Positions 4,809-62,884 of a DNA stretch of 64,000 nt are shown piece after piece. Within the stretch, counting starts at the first letter, position 1, and every line of letters begins with the position of its first letter. The DNA is from a virus. Location: the IMG/VR virus record IMGVR_UViG_3300024239_000016, positions 1 through 64,000 of that record. One strand, written 5' to 3'. The position numbers were made by a program, and so were the translations under genes. The notes beneath the pieces are model-generated. The model had not been told where the DNA came from and searched no databases. It saw only the letters and a list, made by a program, of their open reading frames with translations.

Positions 4809-5076
4809 TAAAGCCAAGATGGTGGAAGTAACTAAAAACACTCTCCACTCTCTCATTGCGACGCTGAAAGAATTAGGCCTCTCTGCTCCGGCTATTGATG
4901 GGTCTTTGGACGATGTCACCAAAGTTGAATTAGTCTGGAGAGCTGATGGTCGCTGTTATATCAAAGTCTCCAGAGGACATATAGTCAGTGCCGTGTACTA
5001 CGAGTGCGTTAAAGCACCGGTGCGCAAATCGCGCGGTGGTTACAAACGCAAAGAAGAAGTATTTGAACAGGAGTGA
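4774..5076 (+). CDS. Hypothetical protein, paralogue of 9172-9432 (100 aa)
   Basis: The ATG at 4774 is preferred over the upstream in-frame ATG at 4738 because AAGGA lies 8 nt before it and the overlap with the previous gene is smaller. The centre (VTKVELVWRADGRCYIKVSR) matches the centre of the protein at 9172 (ATKLEVTWRDSRRCSVKLTY), and both end in a basic tail, so the two are paralogues in neighbouring early operons. The function is unknown. The basic C-terminus (KSRGGYKRKEE) would suit contact with nucleic acid or an acidic partner, but this is only inference. Confidence 0.75.
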   Translation: MLSGALTQITADKAKMVEVTKNTLHSLIATLKELGLSAPAIDGSLDDVTKVELVWRADGRCYIKVSRGHIVSAVYYECVKAPVRKSRGGYKRKEEVFEQE

Positions 5077-5079
5077 TTT

Positions 5080-5472
5080 ATGACTGATGATAACAAAATT
5101 TATTCTCTCGTATATACCTTTTGTACAGGAGACCAGCAAAAGCGTGGTTATATTGATTCCTTGATTTCCAGTATCGATACCATTATCCGGTCAGTTCTTC
5201 CTAGAGAACACGATACATGTTGGAAATTGAATCTCGGTCCTACTCATATCTGGTTCAAAGAATCGGATATGCTGTTTTGTACAATCGATACCAATATTGC
5301 CAATATTCGTTTGATTGAAAACATTCGCGGACTAGAGATCTCGATCAAGCATCCTGGATCTAGTGCGTGGAAGAGAATTGCTTTAGCGTCAGACGACGAC
5401 TATGTAGTAGTTCTAAACGAGCTTCAGAAACTGAATGCGACGTATCGTAATACGTATCTGGTGCTTTACTAA
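5080..5472 (+). CDS. Hypothetical protein (130 aa)
   Basis: Follows the previous gene by 3 nt, with the ribosome site (CAGGAG) inside that gene's end. No membrane segment or known motif. Last gene of the operon: a strong terminator starts 11 nt after the stop. Confidence 0.75.
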   Translation: MTDDNKIYSLVYTFCTGDQQKRGYIDSLISSIDTIIRSVLPREHDTCWKLNLGPTHIWFKESDMLFCTIDTNIANIRLIENIRGLEISIKHPGSSAWKRIALASDDDYVVVLNELQKLNATYRNTYLVLY

Positions 5473-5483
5473 ACGATCTAACC

Positions 5484-5524
5484 ACACAGCCCCAATTGGG
5501 GCTGTGTGCGTGTATTTTTTTTTT
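5484..5524 (+). terminator. Rho-independent terminator
   Basis: A 10-bp stem (ACACAGCCCC and its complement) with an AATT loop, followed shortly by a run of ten T. Ends the 3954-5472 operon just ahead of the next early promoter. Confidence 0.9.
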
Positions 5525-5533
5525 ATGTGATAT

Positions 5534-5557
5534 GGAGTATTTCAGTTACATATAACC
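5534..5557 (+). promoter_or_regulatory. Early promoter ahead of 5613
   Basis: GGAGTATTTCA at 5534-5544, 3 nt, then ACATATAACC. The upstream half GATATGGAGTATTTCA is the same at 9526-9540, and GAGTATTTCA recurs at 45224. It lies between a terminator and the first gene of an operon. Confidence 0.65.
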
Positions 5558-5612
5558 TTTGTGATCTGCTTTAATAATCCCATTAAAGCTAGCCATTTTT
5601 AGGAGAAGAATC

Positions 5613-5924
5613 ATGGCATATTACAAAATTTTTGGTGAGCAAGCCGATCAAGGTAAGATCGATGACATCATGATCGCTGGTGCTCTTGGTGACTTGTGGG
5701 CTCTTGGTCTTGGCATCAAAGAGATCGAAGTCTGCTATGGCGGTATTCGTCTCTTTACCAAGGATGGTAACATCATCAACTACACGGTCGATGGAGGGCT
5801 TGTGACCATTGCTCTGGCAGCCGACAACTTCGAATCTGTCCCGTTCGAAGTTACCCCGGAGCAAATCACAATCTTCAACAAGCTTACCATGTGGCCTCTC
5901 GGGGCTTTTGGTCATAGTCGTTAA
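5613..5924 (+). CDS. Hypothetical early protein (103 aa)
   Basis: First gene of a four-gene operon, with AGGAG 8 nt before the ATG. Small soluble protein of mixed composition. Its C-terminus (IFNKLTMWPLGAFGHSR) is clearly related to the end of the broken reading frame at 8960-9153 (FFNKLAKWPIGVYSSLK), so the family was duplicated in this phage. No known domain recognised. Confidence 0.75.
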   Translation: MAYYKIFGEQADQGKIDDIMIAGALGDLWALGLGIKEIEVCYGGIRLFTKDGNIINYTVDGGLVTIALAADNFESVPFEVTPEQITIFNKLTMWPLGAFGHSR

Positions 5925-5946
5925 CTCATTTAGCCAGGAGGCTATC

Positions 5947-6228
5947 ATGGAACAACTGAAACTGCAGTACCCCGGTCGTTACCATAATGGCCGGATGTTT
6001 CAATCTGACGTAGCTGAGCCCACTAATGCTCAGCGTGCTGAGAATAAGCGCACTCTCAGTCGCAACATGACCAAGTCTGGAAAGTACATCCTTCCGGCTT
6101 TGGTAGCGATGGGCATTCCTCTCGGGGCTGTGCTCTCTATCGTGGGCACTGAGGCTAAGCGCGATCGCGCTGTCGCTGCCTACAATCGCAACATCATAAC
6201 CGCCCACAACTACATGTCGTGGATGTAA
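5947..6228 (+). CDS. Small membrane protein (93 aa)
   Basis: The start at 5947 has CCAGGAGG 5 nt upstream; the longer in-frame ORF from 5809 would overlap the previous gene and is not used. One hydrophobic segment (around residues 48-69, YILPALVAMGIPLGAVLSIVG) follows a basic N-terminal half, so a single-span inner-membrane protein is likely. Function unknown. Early operon position suggests a role in host takeover, by inference only. Confidence 0.7.
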   Translation: MEQLKLQYPGRYHNGRMFQSDVAEPTNAQRAENKRTLSRNMTKSGKYILPALVAMGIPLGAVLSIVGTEAKRDRAVAAYNRNIITAHNYMSWM

Positions 6229-6257
6229 TCTTTTACGATCATAGAACGGAGAAAATC

Positions 6258-6560
6258 ATGATCAAGACCAATGAGAAGAATCTCGCTGAAGTGCGAGTTG
6301 CTACCGCCTACATCGATGGCGGTAATGGTATCACGTTTGAGGATCACCTCTACTTGGTGGTTGATGAAAGTGGTGTTATCAAGTTTTGCAGTCGCTCTAT
6401 CATCGAAGCTGATGGTGAGCGTGCTGTAAGTGGTCGTGGCATCCGTGAGATGCTGAACAATAAGGCAGCTGTAGTTGGTGCTGCCTGTCTGAGCGTTGGC
6501 ATGACCTTCAAGGAGGTCATGCAACACTGTCTTATTAACAAGCCGTTCTATCCGGCTTAA
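6258..6560 (+). CDS. Hypothetical protein (100 aa)
   Basis: The start at 6258 is supported by CGGAGA 6 nt upstream, the same leader type as its neighbours, and avoids overlap with the previous gene. Soluble; no motif recognised. Member of the 5613-6851 early operon. Confidence 0.7.
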   Translation: MIKTNEKNLAEVRVATAYIDGGNGITFEDHLYLVVDESGVIKFCSRSIIEADGERAVSGRGIREMLNNKAAVVGAACLSVGMTFKEVMQHCLINKPFYPA

Positions 6561-35741: not shown

Positions 35742-38700
35742 ATGCGTGATTATTATCAGTTTTTCTTCCGTAGCGTGGGTGCATGGAAGAGCGAATTAAT
35801 TACGAATCCGCAACTGCATCCGTTCGAAGGATTGCAGCTGCCTCGTAATTCAGCGTACCACATCTTGCCGGATGGTAGTGACTCTCCAACACCAAATCCC
35901 AATGATCCAATTCTGAAGGGATGGAGCAAGCCCATAAGCTTGCTCAACGTCCATCAGCTGGCTGTACTGGATGGAGAGCCACGTAAACTGGCTTACGATG
36001 TTGTTAGTGAATTCAATAAGTTCCTGACAGCAAACAACATGCAATTCCGTCGGATGAAATCCCTAGAACAGGTCGTCCCTGATGATCAAGCTCTGGTGGC
36101 AATTTCGTACATGGCTATCCCAAGGGCGTACTATTACGCCCAGACGAACTACTCAGAATGGCACTCGTATTACAACTTGATGAAAACTGTTTTTCAAAAA
36201 GTTGAGGAATTGGCGAACAACAGTAGCCGCCATCAGTTCCTGGTTTTCGATGCACCGGAGTTGGTGCCATCTCTAGAGTTGTTAAAATACGCCGAGCGCT
36301 CAGCAGAACTTGAGCGAAAGATTGTTAAGGACTTCAACACTCCAGGACGCCGCCTTGTTCTTGAGCTATTCAAATGGCTGGGAGCTGGCTATAACCAAAA
36401 CTCTCTTTTCTCACTGATCTCGCTGGCAAATCTAAGTAAGGTGAATTTGATTCTTCGCCACAAAGGAAATTTCATCCTGATCAATCTGGGCCTTTTGTTC
36501 TCTTGGAGATCTGCTCCAAAGACTGAAAAAGAAGTCTGGGAATTCTTCGGTAAAGAAGCAGGCCGCGGACAGATGCCGCTCCAGTACCAGCGCTGGTTGA
36601 TTCGGTTCTTTGCTGTTATTTCGAAGCTGGAAACGCCGAGTGTCGACGTTGAAAAATTGGACGCTGAGCTAAAGGCAGCCGGCGAAGAAATCATCGACGA
36701 TGCTTCCTCAGTTCCGTCCATCGCTAATAAAGCTGGCGCCGTGACTCAGGTAAACGATGACATGGATGAGGAAATGGATGATGGTCTGTTAGATGACAGG
36801 CCTTCTACCCCAGCAGAAAAAATTGATTTCGCTATCACGGAAGAGTTGGAAAAAGAGCTCGAGCGTGAGTTGGCCGTTCTCTCCAGAAAGAATGACAAGT
36901 ATGGTGAGGATGAGGAAGATATTCCTGTCACCGAAGTAGCGGAGATCTCCGATATCGATGCTCCGACCATCTACAATGCAGTTACTCGGAAATGCGATTA
37001 CCTGGCTGATCAGGGAGTTCTTAGCGCCGCAGAGTACAAGCGACATATTCGGCTATCTGAGAGCTTCAAGAAAATTAAGATCGACGGTAAGCCAGTCGAA
37101 GACTTAATTAAGAGAGATCCGATTAGCGTTGCTCTAGCTGAGCCGAAGTTGATACCGGATGCCGCAGGCGTTAAAGATAAGCGCATGCTTAAGTCATCTA
37201 TTTCGGAGCTGAACGAAGAGTATCAGAAACGCGGAATGTTGGCGGATACAGTAAGTTGCATCATGGCTATTCAGAAAGCCGCTATCTCGGTCACAGAGAT
37301 AGAAAAAGATCGCATCGATACCATCATGGGCAGCAGTGACGTTTATTCTGTTCGTTTGGTACCCGTTGAGGGCGAGCCCAGCACAATCAAAATTCGTGTA
37401 TCGGCTTGCAATGACGACGGTAGTTTTGTAGCCAATGGCACCAAGTATCGTCTTCGCCGCCAGAAGGCAGATGTGCCTATTCGCAAAATCAGCCCAAATG
37501 AGGTTGTGCTTTCCAGCTATTACGGCCCAAAGCAATTCATCACGCGAGGAGCTCGTAAGAACAACAGCTACGAAATCTGGTTAGCAGCTCAGATTCGTGC
37601 TATCGGTTTGGATGAAAATAACCAAACGATCACGGATTTGCATGTTGGAAATGATTTCGACCACGATTTCCGCTGCAACTATACGTACTCGGTTCTCGCT
37701 AGGAACTTCGCAGGATTCAATCTGAAAGGATTTGAATGCTCTTTCAACCATAAATTGCGAGAAGAGAGATTCGGCGCCGAGGCTATCAAGTTGTACGAGG
37801 GCGATAAAAAGCATGGTCGATTGATTTTTGGGAAATCGAAAGATGACCAATATCTGATCTTTGGCACCGATGGTCTAGTTTATATTGGCGCTGATAAAAC
37901 ATCGCGGTTGGTTGGCTCTTTTGAAGATTACGTTGGAATCGAAGAGTTCTCACCTGTTGAGCGGGCAGACATGCGCATCATCGACAAGAATATTCCGCTT
38001 GGAGTTATTCTGTCTTACGAGATGGGTCTGGAGACCATGCTCAAAGCGCTGCGTGTTAAATATGACAAGTTCGAGGGCAATATTCGGATGATGTCAAAAA
38101 GTAATACGCACTATGTCTTGCGATTCAAGGATTGTTGTTTAGTGATTTATCGCGATCGTGGCCGCTTGGATATGATCATCGGTGGTCTGATGGAGTACGA
38201 TGACTTCCTAAAGACTCGCACTCTGCGTGAGTTTAATAAGAAGGACATCTATCTACCGCTCTTAGAGAGCCGCAAGCTGACGCTGCGCTACTTGACAGAA
38301 ATCGACAACCTGTACGATCTGTTTATTGACCCAATCACTGAGTTGAACCTCAAGCGAATGAATGAGCCAACGACGTTCCGTGGGCTACTGTTGAGAGCCG
38401 TTGAGTTATTATTGATCGACTGGCATCCAACAGAAATGGATACAGAATACCAACAGCTCAAAGGTAACGAACGTATGGCCGGAGCTATTTACCGCGAACT
38501 GGTACGTAGCGTACGGAGACATCGTTCAAGATCCGATCGCGCTAGAGCTCCAATTGAGCTGAAGCCGCACGCTGTATGGAAAGCAATTGCTGATGACTCA
38601 GCTAAATTGCTAATGGATGAAATCAATCCAATTGCCCATCTGAAAGAAATCGAAGCCGTAACTTTCTCAGGAACTGGTGGTCGTACAGCTGAGACTATGA

Positions 38701-40037
38701 TGGCTAAATCGCGGATTTATACCAAGAAAGATATGGGTATTATTTCCGAAGCTAACGTTGACTCAGGCGATGTGGGCGTTAACATCTGGACATCGGCTAA
38801 CCCAAACCTTACCACTATTTACGGTAACACAAAACAGCTGGATGGAGATTACGACCCCACTAAGTTGTTTAGCACAACTACTCTGCTAGCTCCATTCGCT
38901 GAGAATGAAGATATGAAGCGAGCAGTTTTTACGGGAATTCAAAACCAGCACACCGTAGCATGTCACGGGTATAAACCACCACAGGTTCGTACCGGCTATG
39001 AATATGTGATTCCTCATCGAGTCGGTGATCTTTTCTGTACTACAGCTAAACAAGCCGGTGTCGTTGAGTCAGTAACAGATGACGGGATTGTTGTTAAATA
39101 CGCAGACGGTACGGTAAAGGGAGTTCAGCTAGGTCGTGTTTACGGCATTAGTTGCGGTAGTGTCGTGTCTCATTCACTGGTTTCAGAAATGAAACCAGGT
39201 CAGAAGTTCAAAGAAGGGGACGTCATCGCTTACAATAGCAATTTCTTTGCCAAGGATTATTTCGATCCGACAAAAGTGATGTTGAAGTTTAACACCACTG
39301 CAAAGATTGCTCTGTATGAGGCAGCGCTGACAAATGACGATTCCTCAATGATCTCCGTTGAGCTATCTGAGCGTCTGCGTTGCGATACGCCGCACGATCG
39401 CATGGTTGTTGTTAGTTTCCAGGATCATCTATCGAAAGTAGTTGGTGTCGGTACTGAAGTTGAGCCCGATGACATTCTCTGTTACATTAGTCCGAGCGTA
39501 GCCAGCTCAGCGACTGGTATTACAGATCAAGTGGCACTGGATGCCCTTACTGAGTGGAGTAATCAAACACCAACCGCTAAGTACAAAGGACGTATTGAGT
39601 ACATCGAGTGTTTCTATCATGGCGACCTCGAAAACATGTCTGAAACTGTGCGGAAGTTAGCTGAAGCATCTGACCGTCAGCGTAAACAGAAGCAAAAGGC
39701 AGCCGCTATGCCTATCTACTCCAGTATGGTCGATGATTCGTTCCGCAAAGATGGCGAGGCTATCCCCGTGGATAGTATGGTCATCAAGTTTTATATCGCA
39801 AGTAGCGAGCCAGCGGCTGTAGCCGATAAAGTGGTGTATGGTAATCAGTTAAAATCAGTCATTGGTGAAGTGATCAGTGGTGAGATTGTAACTGAGTCTG
39901 GTGTGCAGATTGAGGCTGTCTTCGGCCAGGCATCTATTGATAATCGAATTATTGATAGCTTTCCGCGTATCGGTGCCCTTACTACGCTTCTGAAGCTTAT
40001 CGCTACAAAAACAGTTTCAGCTTACCGTAATCAATAA
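35742..40037 (+). CDS. RNA polymerase beta-type large subunit (1431 aa)
   Basis: Residues about 1060-1090 (KRAVFTGIQNQHTVACHGY, then PPQVRTGYE) align with the beta segment NRALMGANMQRQAVP, then GTGME. Further on, MKPGQKFKEGDVIAYNSNFF and KFNTTAKIALYEAALTNDD match the following beta region (RGDVLADG, then the stretch ending NFEDSILVS). The extreme C-terminal beta sequence is missing and is probably supplied by the 20159 gene. The first 600 residues contain an acidic linker (around 330-390, DDMDEEMDDG) and lack clear similarity. Length and context match phiKZ gp178. Co-transcribed with the beta' part. Confidence 0.88.
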   Translation: MRDYYQFFFRSVGAWKSELITNPQLHPFEGLQLPRNSAYHILPDGSDSPTPNPNDPILKGWSKPISLLNVHQLAVLDGEPRKLAYDVVSEFNKFLTANNMQFRRMKSLEQVVPDDQALVAISYMAIPRAYYYAQTNYSEWHSYYNLMKTVFQKVEELANNSSRHQFLVFDAPELVPSLELLKYAERSAELERKIVKDFNTPGRRLVLELFKWLGAGYNQNSLFSLISLANLSKVNLILRHKGNFILINLGLLFSWRSAPKTEKEVWEFFGKEAGRGQMPLQYQRWLIRFFAVISKLETPSVDVEKLDAELKAAGEEIIDDASSVPSIANKAGAVTQVNDDMDEEMDDGLLDDRPSTPAEKIDFAITEELEKELERELAVLSRKNDKYGEDEEDIPVTEVAEISDIDAPTIYNAVTRKCDYLADQGVLSAAEYKRHIRLSESFKKIKIDGKPVEDLIKRDPISVALAEPKLIPDAAGVKDKRMLKSSISELNEEYQKRGMLADTVSCIMAIQKAAISVTEIEKDRIDTIMGSSDVYSVRLVPVEGEPSTIKIRVSACNDDGSFVANGTKYRLRRQKADVPIRKISPNEVVLSSYYGPKQFITRGARKNNSYEIWLAAQIRAIGLDENNQTITDLHVGNDFDHDFRCNYTYSVLARNFAGFNLKGFECSFNHKLREERFGAEAIKLYEGDKKHGRLIFGKSKDDQYLIFGTDGLVYIGADKTSRLVGSFEDYVGIEEFSPVERADMRIIDKNIPLGVILSYEMGLETMLKALRVKYDKFEGNIRMMSKSNTHYVLRFKDCCLVIYRDRGRLDMIIGGLMEYDDFLKTRTLREFNKKDIYLPLLESRKLTLRYLTEIDNLYDLFIDPITELNLKRMNEPTTFRGLLLRAVELLLIDWHPTEMDTEYQQLKGNERMAGAIYRELVRSVRRHRSRSDRARAPIELKPHAVWKAIADDSAKLLMDEINPIAHLKEIEAVTFSGTGGRTAETMMAKSRIYTKKDMGIISEANVDSGDVGVNIWTSANPNLTTIYGNTKQLDGDYDPTKLFSTTTLLAPFAENEDMKRAVFTGIQNQHTVACHGYKPPQVRTGYEYVIPHRVGDLFCTTAKQAGVVESVTDDGIVVKYADGTVKGVQLGRVYGISCGSVVSHSLVSEMKPGQKFKEGDVIAYNSNFFAKDYFDPTKVMLKFNTTAKIALYEAALTNDDSSMISVELSERLRCDTPHDRMVVVSFQDHLSKVVGVGTEVEPDDILCYISPSVASSATGITDQVALDALTEWSNQTPTAKYKGRIEYIECFYHGDLENMSETVRKLAEASDRQRKQKQKAAAMPIYSSMVDDSFRKDGEAIPVDSMVIKFYIASSEPAAVADKVVYGNQLKSVIGEVISGEIVTESGVQIEAVFGQASIDNRIIDSFPRIGALTTLLKLIATKTVSAYRNQ

Positions 40038-45887: not shown

Positions 45888-47228
45888 GTGAAACAACATC
45901 TTGAACTGGCTAAAGACATCATCGAAAATGGCAGCTATCGGCCTGGTCGCGGCAATCAACCGACGCGTGCATTATTCGGCAAGCAGATGACTTTCGATCT
46001 GATGGACGGATTACCAATCTCTACTACGCAATACATCGATTTTCGTTCGTTGCTGGCTGAACTTTTCTGGTTTCTTTCTGGCAGTACCAACAACGATGAG
46101 CTAATTCATCTTGGCGCAAAATTCTGGACTCCCTGGGCGCTCGAGGAAAATGTTCTCAAGAACACTCCCGTCGATGGTTATACTCGTGCTTGCTCGCTGG
46201 CTATCAAAATGAACCAGAGCGTTTCGGAAATGATCAAGCATCTGAATGGGCTATCTATGGGAGATGCTGAAGCTCTGATGCAAGAGTACGGCATTAAAGA
46301 CCACGAGTCAGTCGTCGCTATCAAAAAAGGATCGCTTGGCCCGATCTACGGGGAGATGTGGCGGAATTTCAATGGTGCGGATCAGATCGCTCAGCTGGTG
46401 AAAAATTTACTCAGCAATCCATATTCGCGGCGCCATGTTGTTAGTAGCTGGAATCCCAGCCTACTCCCAGATGAGGCTCTGTCCCATAGTCAGAATGTAA
46501 TGGCTGGTAAACAGGTTCTGCCTCCATGCCATCCGCTGTGGCAGGTATTTGTTGCTCCCGTCACACCTAAGCAGCTGGTCAAATATCTTCAACATAATCG
46601 GTTCGTTCTGCCATATATGATCAACTGCCAGGAGATGATCAACGAGATAATCTCAGAGCTGCAAAAACTATCTACCGATGGCTCGCGTTTATCAGCCAAT
46701 GAGAGAGATGAGCGGCTGAAAGAGATCGTTTCGATGTACCAATTCGAAAACACGTGTGAGCTAGTCGGGTATAGCGATAGTTTTAAACGTGAGAAGATCT
46801 CTCTTCCGATCAACCGCCTATCATTGCAGCTGTATGCTCGCTCGCAGGATTTCATGGTTGGTACAGTTGTGAATGTTCCGTCGTATGCAGTACTGACGCA
46901 TATTCTGGCCGCAGTGATCAATGCTGTTCCTGGCGATTACATCCACACCATGGGCGATTGCCACATCTACGAGAACCAGATCGATCAAGCACAATTGCAG
47001 CTGGATCGCAGACCTATGCCTCTACCAGCATTAGCTCTACCGGATCATTTTTACTCATACAACTGGGAGAAATATGTTCACTCCCGGCCGCAATACATGA
47101 TGAATATCTTTACTGATAGATCATTAGATCCTTACGGTCTTGCCGATGGCCATCCATTCTCACTTGATGATTTTAAACTATTGGGTTACGATCATCACGA
47201 GAAGATCAAGTACAAAGTTTTGGTGTGA
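45888..47228 (+). CDS. thyA: Thymidylate synthase with two insertions (446 aa)
   Basis: The GTG start follows CGAGG by 8 nt. The ThyA signature is present: KKGSLGPIYGEMWRNF, SRRHVVSSWNP, the nucleophile C214 in LPPCHPLW, and LQLYARSQDFMVGTVVNVPSYA. ThyA methylates dUMP to dTMP using methylene-tetrahydrofolate. Standard enzymes are about 264 residues. Here about 65 extra residues precede the GPIYG motif and about 80 lie between C214 and LQLYARS. The core looks complete, so activity is likely. A 5-hydroxymethyl-type pyrimidine synthase cannot be excluded. Confidence 0.85.
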   Translation: MKQHLELAKDIIENGSYRPGRGNQPTRALFGKQMTFDLMDGLPISTTQYIDFRSLLAELFWFLSGSTNNDELIHLGAKFWTPWALEENVLKNTPVDGYTRACSLAIKMNQSVSEMIKHLNGLSMGDAEALMQEYGIKDHESVVAIKKGSLGPIYGEMWRNFNGADQIAQLVKNLLSNPYSRRHVVSSWNPSLLPDEALSHSQNVMAGKQVLPPCHPLWQVFVAPVTPKQLVKYLQHNRFVLPYMINCQEMINEIISELQKLSTDGSRLSANERDERLKEIVSMYQFENTCELVGYSDSFKREKISLPINRLSLQLYARSQDFMVGTVVNVPSYAVLTHILAAVINAVPGDYIHTMGDCHIYENQIDQAQLQLDRRPMPLPALALPDHFYSYNWEKYVHSRPQYMMNIFTDRSLDPYGLADGHPFSLDDFKLLGYDHHEKIKYKVLV

Positions 47229-59251: not shown

Positions 59252-59295
59252 ATACATCACTACCGGGCAATGCCCGGTAGTGATGTATTTTTTTA
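59252..59295 (+). terminator. 17-bp terminator after the fibre-like gene
   Basis: Stem ATACATCACTACCGGGC with its full complement and a 3-nt loop, followed by TTTTTTT. Confidence 0.9.
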
Positions 59296-59309
59296 TAAAA
59301 ACATATTAC
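59288..59309 (+). promoter_or_regulatory. Early promoter ahead of 59353 and the tRNA region
   Basis: CATATTAC at 59302-59309 within AAAACATATTACTTTACTG, with a T-run just upstream that also serves the terminator. It could drive 59353 and the RNA/tRNA cluster behind it. Confidence 0.6.
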
Positions 59310-59352: not shown

Positions 59353-59733
59353 ATGAACAACCGACGCATTCGTCTCAAATCAATTCGCGCGAAGCTTTAT
59401 AAAGAGAACTGTATTATTCCGACCATAATCAGGAATGGTAAAGTCCTACGCAGAGCTCAACTGCGTTACGCCTACATCGAAAGCCGCCCACGTAAAAACA
59501 ATAAATCAAAACACAAATACGATACCTTTGCACATATCACATGCCCAAGTTGCGATGGCTTTGCTAGTCAGTACCGCTATGCCGAAACCGAAGAAGAACA
59601 AGCATATGAAGAAAAACAAATGTTGAAGCGCGGAGGCATTTTTCCGTATGCTGACATGTACGCATGTCGTGCAAAAATCGGCAATGGTGTATGTAGTAGC
59701 GGTTATAGCAACAAGCGCTATCGGTTTTCTTAG
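59353..59733 (+). CDS. Small basic protein with possible zinc ribbon (126 aa)
   Basis: GGGAG about 10 nt before the ATG. Strongly basic N-terminal half (RRIRLKSIRAKLYK, RPRKNNKSKHKY). CPSC (around residues 64-67) and later single cysteines (ACRAK, GVCSS) could bind zinc. Probably binds nucleic acid. It directly precedes the structured RNA region, but a link is speculative. Confidence 0.7.
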   Translation: MNNRRIRLKSIRAKLYKENCIIPTIIRNGKVLRRAQLRYAYIESRPRKNNKSKHKYDTFAHITCPSCDGFASQYRYAETEEEQAYEEKQMLKRGGIFPYADMYACRAKIGNGVCSSGYSNKRYRFS

Positions 59734-60498
59734 TGATTTAATTCGCAGCACATTTATGTGATGTAAAGTAACAAACAAAGGGCACCTGCTAATAAACTAT
59801 CGGTAGTCAACGTGGCTGGCTATTAGAAATAATACCACGCTGCGATGGCGTAACGATAGAGTCGAAAGAAGCATAAAACATCTATTCATTTTGGCACGCG
59901 TAAAACCTTAAAAAGATAGATGGGTGAATCTGTTCAAAGTCGGCGAATGCTGCGTCCGTTAGGACACGCTAACGCCGAGCCAAAACAAGTTGTCCTATTC
60001 AGCCTAACCTACCTTTAGTCGGATGTACTTGACCGGTAGTATGGCGGGGATGTAAATGCTAGTTCAGGTAAAACACTACGGTGTAACTAGAATCTCGGGA
60101 GAGATCTAAAGACAGGCATTCTTGTGAGGTGTAGAGAGATGATGGACAGGACCTAAGTCTGCTGGCGATGATGTTTGTCGTTAAAACGAAGTTAACTCGA
60201 TAGTGATATGGATAAATTGCCTATCATGATGACCGTGTTAGCGTAAGGAAGCAGATATGGTAAAGGCGATCTCCGGACTACAACAATAGATGGACATGAC
60301 GCGTGCGTTGCGAGACAGCACAAATCACATACATCTCTGATCGTCGTAAGACGATGTAGTGAGTTTCCTTAAACTAAAAGTGCATCCCAGTGCTGGCCTT
60401 ATTAGCATTGCGTAGCCTGACAGCGTAACAGGTTAATTCTAGTTAAAGAAGAAAGTGCTCATGGATTAATACTAGGTAATCGCATCCATGACAGATGT
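59734..60498 (+). ncRNA. Candidate large structured RNA (765 nt) 5' of tRNA-Leu
   Basis: No credible ORF on either strand. Nested helices run through it: CTATCG 59797-59802 with CGATAG 59854-59859, enclosing CGTGG/CCACG (59811-59839); CATCTAT/ATAGATG (59879-59922); CGGCG/CGCCG (59941-59977) around GTCC-GTTA-GGAC; CTAGTT/AACTAG (60059-60090) around ACAC-TACG-GTGT; ATCTC-GGGA-GAGAT (60092-60105) and ATCGTC-GTAA-GACGAT (60340-60355), both with GNRA loops; CATGGA/TCCATG (60460-60490). It ends 8 nt before a tRNA. Size and tRNA context recall the GOLLD and ROOL phage RNAs; family unproven. Confidence 0.55.
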
Positions 60499-60583
60499 GC
60501 CCAGGTGGCGAAATTGGTAGACGCACCAGATTTAGGTTCTGGCGCCTTCGGGTGTAGGGGTTCGATTCCCCTCTTGGGCACCA
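60499..60583 (+). tRNA. tRNA-Leu (UAG)
   Basis: Acceptor GCCCAGG/CTTGGGC (one G-U), anticodon loop TTTAGGT giving UAG, long variable arm with a CTTCGG loop, T-loop TTCGATT and an encoded CCA. Reads CUA/CUN leucine codons. Confidence 0.95.
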
Positions 60584-61517: not shown

Positions 61518-61834
61518 TCATCAGAGTACCACACAAACCGGAACCAGTTCCTGTACCGGTAGCTTTAAGCTCAATAGCCTCGTAGGAGGGTGAGGGATAG
61601 TTAATGGGCGCTATATCGACTTTGTCGTGATACCCATGAAATCGGTTAGCAGAGCCGATGGGCGACTTCTGTTAGTATCAAGCGTTGAGGCTATGTTCAG
61701 GATTGTATTTGGGCATTCGACCATCTGTTTTAGATGTCTGGTTCGACTCCAGTAATGATACGATCTAGGGATCCCTTGGGTCCCTATTCTAAAGTGATTT
61801 ATTTTACAATTATTTTAGAATAGTAAACTTTAAT
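61518..61834 (+). ncRNA. Candidate structured RNA (317 nt) 5' of second tRNA-Leu
   Basis: No ORF with a start signal. Helices: ACCGG 61537-61541 with CCGGT 61556-61560; ATAGCCTC 61574-61581 with GAGGCTAT 61687-61694, enclosing ATGGG/CCCAT (61604-61637) and ATCGG/CCGAT (61641-61659); then a tRNA-like element; then AGGGA/TCCCT (61767-61784) and TATTCTAAA/TTTAGAATA (61785-61822), just before the tRNA. Same style as the 59734 region. Alternatively the relic of decayed tRNA genes. Confidence 0.45.
61675..61761 (+). other. tRNA-like element (degenerate)
   Basis: GTATCA at 61675 pairs with TGATAC at 61756-61761 as an acceptor-like stem. A CATCT/AGATG stem (61722-61736) sits where the anticodon arm would be, and CTGG-TTCGACT-CCAG (61738-61752) is a good T-arm. 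U33 and a normal 7-nt anticodon loop are missing, and no CCA follows. Probably a decayed tRNA or a mimic within the larger RNA. Confidence 0.45.
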
Positions 61835-62298: not shown

Positions 62299-62884
62299 AA
62301 AAAAAAAAGCATGTGCTCGCTATTGTCTGAATAGTAAAGAAAGCACGGACTTACTGAGTCCGATAGTGAGGCAGTCCTGCATTGTCGTCAGATCAAGGCC
62401 TATTCATGATAGGTACAGTTTGACATCAGACTCTGGCAGTTAGGCTGATCAGAAGTGGAGCCGTGATAGTTCCGGATTTCGCAAAACCCTCAGATTACTT
62501 CTGTGGTCAGATGCGAGAGATGATGGAGTACCAGTGTCGAAGAGTGTGCGAGGGTGAACCTAGCGCTCTTAAACGGTCGACTAAATCAGAACTGATATTT
62601 GGCTATCGGCGATGAGGATTGGTTTAGAATCATGCCAATGTTCGAAATCCAAGTTCAAGGAGTTTATTGGGTAGTGATGAGAGAACTATCCTAGATACGT
62701 TTTCTCATCACTAGAACAGACGACATCCAGGCGAAACTGGGTTAAGTGAACTAGACCCACCAATCCATAGCACATAGGTGAATACGCACTCCCTTAGGTC
62801 TAGAGTGTCAGTAGTTCGCGCGGACTACCTCGACAGCATCGCCCTTGCAAAGCGGTGCTGTCCTGGAAGTGCGCATGAAATTGT
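62299..62884 (+). ncRNA. Candidate large structured RNA (586 nt) 5' of tRNA-Pro
   Basis: Gene-free and rich in helices: CTATT/AATAG (62320-62334), CGGACT/AGTCCG (62346-62362), CCTAT/ATAGG (62399-62413), CAGAAGT 62450-62456 with ACTTCTG 62497-62503, ATCAG/CTGAT (62585-62596), 11-bp TAGTGATGAGA 62672-62682 with 62703-62713, CTAGACC 62751-62757 with GGTCTAG 62797-62803, GTAGT/ACTAC (62811-62828), 11-bp GACAGCATCGC/GCGGTGCTGTC (62832-62862). Shares the 13-mer GAGAGATGATGGA with the 59734 region. Ends directly at a tRNA. Confidence 0.5.

Follow-up and report, generated by a model that had tools for sequence, protein, structure and literature searches.

A probable orphan group I intron, still folded, in the tRNA island of a phiKZ-like phage

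Results

The window analyzed here covers the first 64 kb of a virus record of 194,227 bases, and the RNA under study, which we call w1, lies within positions 59734-60498. The window encodes a 1431-aa protein (35742-40037), identified as the beta subunit of the phiKZ-like phage RNA polymerase (PHROG 3148), with at most 37% identity to named phages (tblastn) and at most 44% identity to IMG/VR contigs (best segment). This match, together with the low identities, indicates that the source is a phiKZ-like phage without a close relative in the collections searched; one candidate for a close relative from neighbor-gene searches, L002, was a false match. Elsewhere in the window, a 446-aa thymidylate synthase ORF (45888-47228) matches PHROG 160 end to end, and since that profile is only about 335 long, the gene may hold an internal insertion.

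Our locus opens a tRNA island with the gene order Leu, Ser, Thr, Leu, Pro, Ser; on a simple codon-usage gene map, the genome's longest gene-free gaps lie in this island. A strong terminator isolates this tRNA unit from the upstream gene (Table 1). The initial annotation placed a promoter at 59302, but sigma-70-like sites are no commoner here than in shuffles and none is found at that position; phiKZ-like phages use promoters other than sigma-70-like ones. Further long gene-free stretches lie in the same island, at 61518-61834 and 62299-62884 of the window and at 65326-66911, 68529-69297, and 72533-73612 of the genome, and these gave neither an Rfam match above threshold nor a match to the intron covariance model described below. 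At about 61674-61760, ARAGORN reports a tRNA-like sequence at relaxed thresholds only.

Between the stop of the upstream ORF (59733) and the start of tRNA-Leu (60499) lie 765 nt that are gene-free, with no internal ORF longer than about 43 aa, and the original description was right to see in the stretch a non-coding RNA, large and structured, next to tRNAs. Its predicted fold reaches -216.3 kcal/mol compared to -199.1 kcal/mol for shuffled sequences (z = -2.45) and beats 20 of 20 dinucleotide shuffles, a modest excess given that only 20 shuffles were used. The inverted repeats named in the initial annotation do exist, although many of the 26 repeats are what chance would produce. A long-range helix reported at 59797/59854 around another hairpin is present (CTATCG/CGATAG) and corresponds to P2 of the intron described below, a GTAA-capped hairpin at 60340-60355 corresponds to P9.1, and a GGGA-capped hairpin is found within 60088-60106. 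The supposed closing helix, CATGGA/TCCATG, is real as TCATGGAT/ATCCATGA (60459-60466/60484-60491) and ends 7 nt short of tRNA-Leu, but it falls outside the intron. Decayed coding sequence was rejected by ORF analysis of the stretch, and decayed tRNA was rejected at covariance-model sensitivity. When Rfam 15 was scanned, tRNA alone scored above threshold and nothing relevant appeared up to E = 10; every other Rfam family was rejected for w1, having no match.

Table 1. Features of the w1 locus (window coordinates).
Feature	Position	Strand	Basis or remark
Intrinsic terminator of upstream gene	59252..59288	+	17-pair stem and T tail
Upstream ORF, 126 aa, possible 5' neighbor or exon	59353..59733	+	stop at 59733
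Candidate internal guide sequence GGGCACC (P1 3' strand)	59779..59785	+	alignment with L162, L185, L205, L281
P2 domain, CTATCG 59797-59802 / CGATAG 59854-59859, inner hairpin	59797..59859	+	6/6 pairs, folds alone
Conserved post-P2 motif GGCGTAAC..CGAAAG..AAAACA	59847..59880	+	HMM; blastn to L281
P3 5' strand CTGTTC	59930..59935	+	6/6 pairs with 60144-60149
P4 5' strand TCGGCG	59940..59945	+	6/6 pairs with CGCCGA 59973-59978
P5 hairpin with J4/5 and J5/4 adenosines	59946..59972	+	
Q element TAACGCCGAGCCAA, P4 3' strand and P6 5' strand	59970..59983	+	exact in w2 and many phage introns
P6 domain, GCC closes with GGT 60128-60130	59979..60130	+	3/3 pairs; GGGA-capped hairpin inside
R element GGTGTAGAGAGAT with P7 5' strand (G60134, bulged A60135, GAGAT 60136-60140)	60128..60140	+	
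P3 3' strand GGACAG	60144..60149	+	pairs with 59930-59935
P8 domain, ACC 60151-60153 closes with GGT 60259-60261	60151..60261	+	3/3 pairs
P7 3' strand ATCTCC in S element AAAGGCGATCTCCGGACTAC	60269..60274	+	6/6 pairs
P9 closing helix ACTAC 60277-60281 / GTAGT 60356-60360	60277..60360	+	homologous to ACCAC/GTGGT in tRNA introns
P9.1 GNRA hairpin ATCGTC-GTAA-GACGAT	60340..60355	+	6/6 pairs; relatives show covariation in the homologous hairpin
Predicted terminal G, 3' splice site after it	60363..60363	+	alignment of GTAGTGAG with intron end GTGGTAAG
3' flank / tRNA-Leu leader, outside ribozyme, with TCATGGAT hairpin	60364..60498	+	
Intact tRNA-Leu, anticodon TAG	60499..60583	+	

No DNA homolog of w1 was found in the named-phage collection, and 48 records with relatives of the phage RNA polymerase gave chance-level matches only. 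The same genome carries a paralog, w2, at genome positions 64220-65237, just outside the window and 4.3 kb downstream of w1, which lies directly upstream of an intact tRNA-Ser(TGA) with about 120 nt between them and has in common with w1 a 15-mer (CTAACGCCGAGCCAA) and a 14-mer (AAAGTCGGCGAATG). Another phage contig, L117, also has in its tRNA island a run of collinear matches, mostly to w2. Both homologs were found without Rfam input, and the blocks common to w1, w2, and L117 have the form of group I P, Q, R, and S elements. The Rfam group I model (RF00028) matched the L117 homolog at 22.8 bits (E = 0.003), below its cut-off, and no match was called for w1, which is probably explained by insertions of about 145 nt in P6 and about 105 nt in P8.

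Viral contigs were scanned for exact matches to two motifs, the Q motif shared by w1 and w2 and an S motif absent from both, and 34 further introns were retrieved beyond w1, w2, and L117. About 30 related introns in other viral contigs (IMG/VR, among L129-L302) sit for the most part in phage tRNA genes, mostly interrupting the anticodon loop, and a typical member closes with GTGGTAAG, with a tRNA T-arm some 20-30 nt further on. When the flanks were joined in silico, a tRNA formed across the junction in 23 of 33 relatives, and no junction-spanning tRNA was obtained for w1, w2, L117, or L261. Several members interrupt tRNA-Leu after GACTT, where the intron of cyanobacterial tRNA-Leu(UAA) also sits. 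Among 14 short members that were aligned, covariation is strong, with 20 of 34 pairs changing on both sides and a covariation score of 0.483 compared to 0.161 in shuffles, and a second, overlapping alignment of introns agrees.

By blastn, similar DNA also turned up in huge-phage LR756501, Agrobacterium phage Atu_ph07, and other named records, where no intron is annotated. The L117 intron (4960-6280, minus strand), homologous and in another phage's tRNA island, contains a degenerate tRNA-like element inside its P6 loop (RF00005, 36 bits), and a pair of tRNA halves follows it by eye. The P5 loop of w2 holds a T-arm-like GGATGTTCGAATCGTCC at 64790-64806; the P2 loop of the L205 intron holds, by eye, a nested tRNA-like or half-tRNA sequence in which ARAGORN finds no tRNA; and the L261 intron has a T-arm in its P5 loop, with an intact tRNA-Leu(TAA) 8 nt past the intron end.

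A covariance model trained solely on 14 introns, all from other phages, was run over the whole record and matched w2 at 49.9 bits (E = 5.8e-10) and w1 at 28.5 bits (E = 8.4e-5), while the next match in the 194 kb had E = 1. Since 6 of these 14 introns had been retrieved with the Q motif, we made two checks, a model from S-motif introns only and matching with Q masked. The stricter, shorter model, from 8 introns retrieved with the S motif only and with no motif of w1, gave w2 at E = 5e-5 and w1 at E = 0.63, the record's only two matches up to E = 10, the value for w1 being weak alone. With Q masked, w1 matched introns in four collinear blocks, namely, the P2 3' side, P3/P4, R, and S; the 35-nt P3/P4 block matches L281 at E = 5.8e-6, and the 30-nt S block matches L219 at E = 0.003. 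The top masked score was 41.9 bits compared to a maximum of 32.8 among 100 shuffles, and five matches of at least 28 bits were obtained in w1 compared to a mean of 0.03 in 100 shuffles. A descriptor of the S element, drawn up with w1's own P7 strand, was found in 0 of 5000 shuffles. For the post-P2 motif, motif HMMs from five other phages placed w2 first and w1 second among sites of the genome, at weak E values (0.05 and 0.7); for the guide region, w2 came first and w1 sixth. Together, we take w1 to be almost certainly a group I intron ribozyme.

The initial annotation considered instead that the stretch was a large ornate phage RNA, either GOLLD or ROOL or one of a new class. GOLLD and ROOL are, like w1, large structured phage RNAs beside tRNAs, and the size and tRNA neighborhood agree (PMC12286853). 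However, w1 has no sequence or structure match to them, Rfam 15 giving none at E ≤ 10, and contains a splicing-ribozyme core, and the homologs we retrieved belong to the group I introns, most of them lying in phage tRNA genes, rather than to a new class. We therefore consider this explanation extremely improbable. Nor does the RNA reach as far as the tRNA; its 3' end falls near 60363.

We place the ribozyme at about 59779-60363. Its P3-P9 core, with the P3/P7 pseudoknot, pairs at homologous positions in every helix, and the P2, P6, P8, and P9 segments each close on themselves when folded separately. A P2 helix of different sequence stands at the corresponding place in w2 and in five tRNA introns, and the candidate guide GGGCACC aligns with GGGTCAC / GAGCACC of tRNA introns. 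In P7, the guanosine-binding pair is kept (G60136-C60273, with A60135 bulged), and w1 has GAGAT/ATCTC where relatives have GACTA/TAGTC, amounting to three compensated changes; compensatory changes also occur in P2, P3, and P9.1. Since the letters of the relatives differ at P2, P3, P9.1, and three P7 pairs, pairing has been kept through compensatory change. In its sequence, w1 has kept the catalytic architecture, comprising P2-P9.1, the P7 G-C pair and bulged A, the J4/5 adenosines, and the terminal G.

The flanks differ from those of typical members. By eye on the alignment with relatives, w1 has no convincing P1 or 5' splice site, and the GGGC at 59779 has no 5' strand; in w2, a plausible 5' splice site is seen by eye, with GAAGCTT before CAATTAGGGC. 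The 135 nt after the w1 3' end contain no tRNA 3' half or T-arm, and no tRNA halves or other exons are recognizable around w1.

Discussion

Since w1 lacks both a 3' tRNA half and a junction-spanning tRNA, we read it as an intron whose exons are lost or hidden, that is, an orphan, still-folded group I intron, with a probability of roughly 80%. It comes from a group I lineage that interrupts phage tRNA genes and has been enlarged by its P6 and P8 insertions. Full pairing despite divergence argues for a recent or present function, and catalytic activity of w1 is, on balance, somewhat favored.

Alternatively, w1 could be an ordinary active intron with unrecognized exons, in the 126-aa ORF or in a divergent tRNA, whose spliced product went undetected. 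The core is intact, the ORF stops near the intron 5' end while one frame from 60364 reads 16 more codons, and several phiKZ-like relatives carry Rfam-detectable group I introns; however, none of the tested w1 junctions gives a tRNA as those of most relatives do, and the ORF matches no known family against which a missing C-terminus could be recognized. We regard this explanation as possible but unlikely. It is also doubtful, and somewhat more so, that w1 is a dead relic whose tRNA exons have decayed and whose ribozyme is decaying too. Its exons and P1 were not found and its model score is low compared to that of w2, but the divergent helices are still fully paired via compensatory changes, three of them in P7, and both copies in the one genome retain the core.

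Under our preferred reading of an orphan intron, the w1 RNA would be transcribed together with the tRNA array, bind guanosine, and excise itself through the standard pair of transesterifications; its 3' end would be cut just past G60363, and the upstream leader would be rejoined to the tRNA-Leu leader. The original tRNA exons have apparently been lost or become unrecognizable, so that w1 would now be an orphan intron in the tRNA-Leu leader, and its excision or cleavage may free the tRNA precursor of the ORF transcript. Domestication of the ribozyme for processing the tRNA array, with selection for cutting the tRNA leader and not for splicing, is a still less probable explanation than decay; w1, w2, and L261 each lie directly upstream of an intact tRNA, but the cases are few and this placement may merely reflect exon loss. 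More broadly, we speculate, with low confidence, that jumbo phages might hold exon-free, tRNA-intron-derived group I ribozymes selected as tRNA leader-cleavers, some relatives having loops that nest tRNA-like pieces.

Group I introns of tRNA genes, such as those of cyanobacterial and plastid tRNA-Leu(UAA) and of phages, have, like w1, P2-P9, P/Q/R/S elements, and a 3' terminal G, and the approximately 30 phage introns share the same sequence blocks, whereas w1 has no flanking tRNA halves, no recognized 5' splice site, and large P6/P8 insertions. Phage protein-gene introns (T4 td, Twort, Bastille, SPO1) are likewise phage-borne group I ribozymes, but w1 has no coding exons in view and no homing endonuclease ORF. 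The phage group I introns known at the time of a 2014 review were all in protein genes, despite the many phage tRNA genes (Hausner et al. 2014, PMC3984707), and a 2025 work surveyed the genes of Bastillevirinae (PMC11878797). In the open-access literature, we found no paper describing the intron lineage of w1.

Our comparison set reveals that group I introns of one lineage occur in phage tRNA genes on many viral contigs; w1 and w2 are large members of this lineage, missed by Rfam, exon-less, and beside intact tRNAs. Altogether, gene-free stretches of phage tRNA islands can conceal catalytic RNAs, and phage tRNA counts may overlook split tRNAs.
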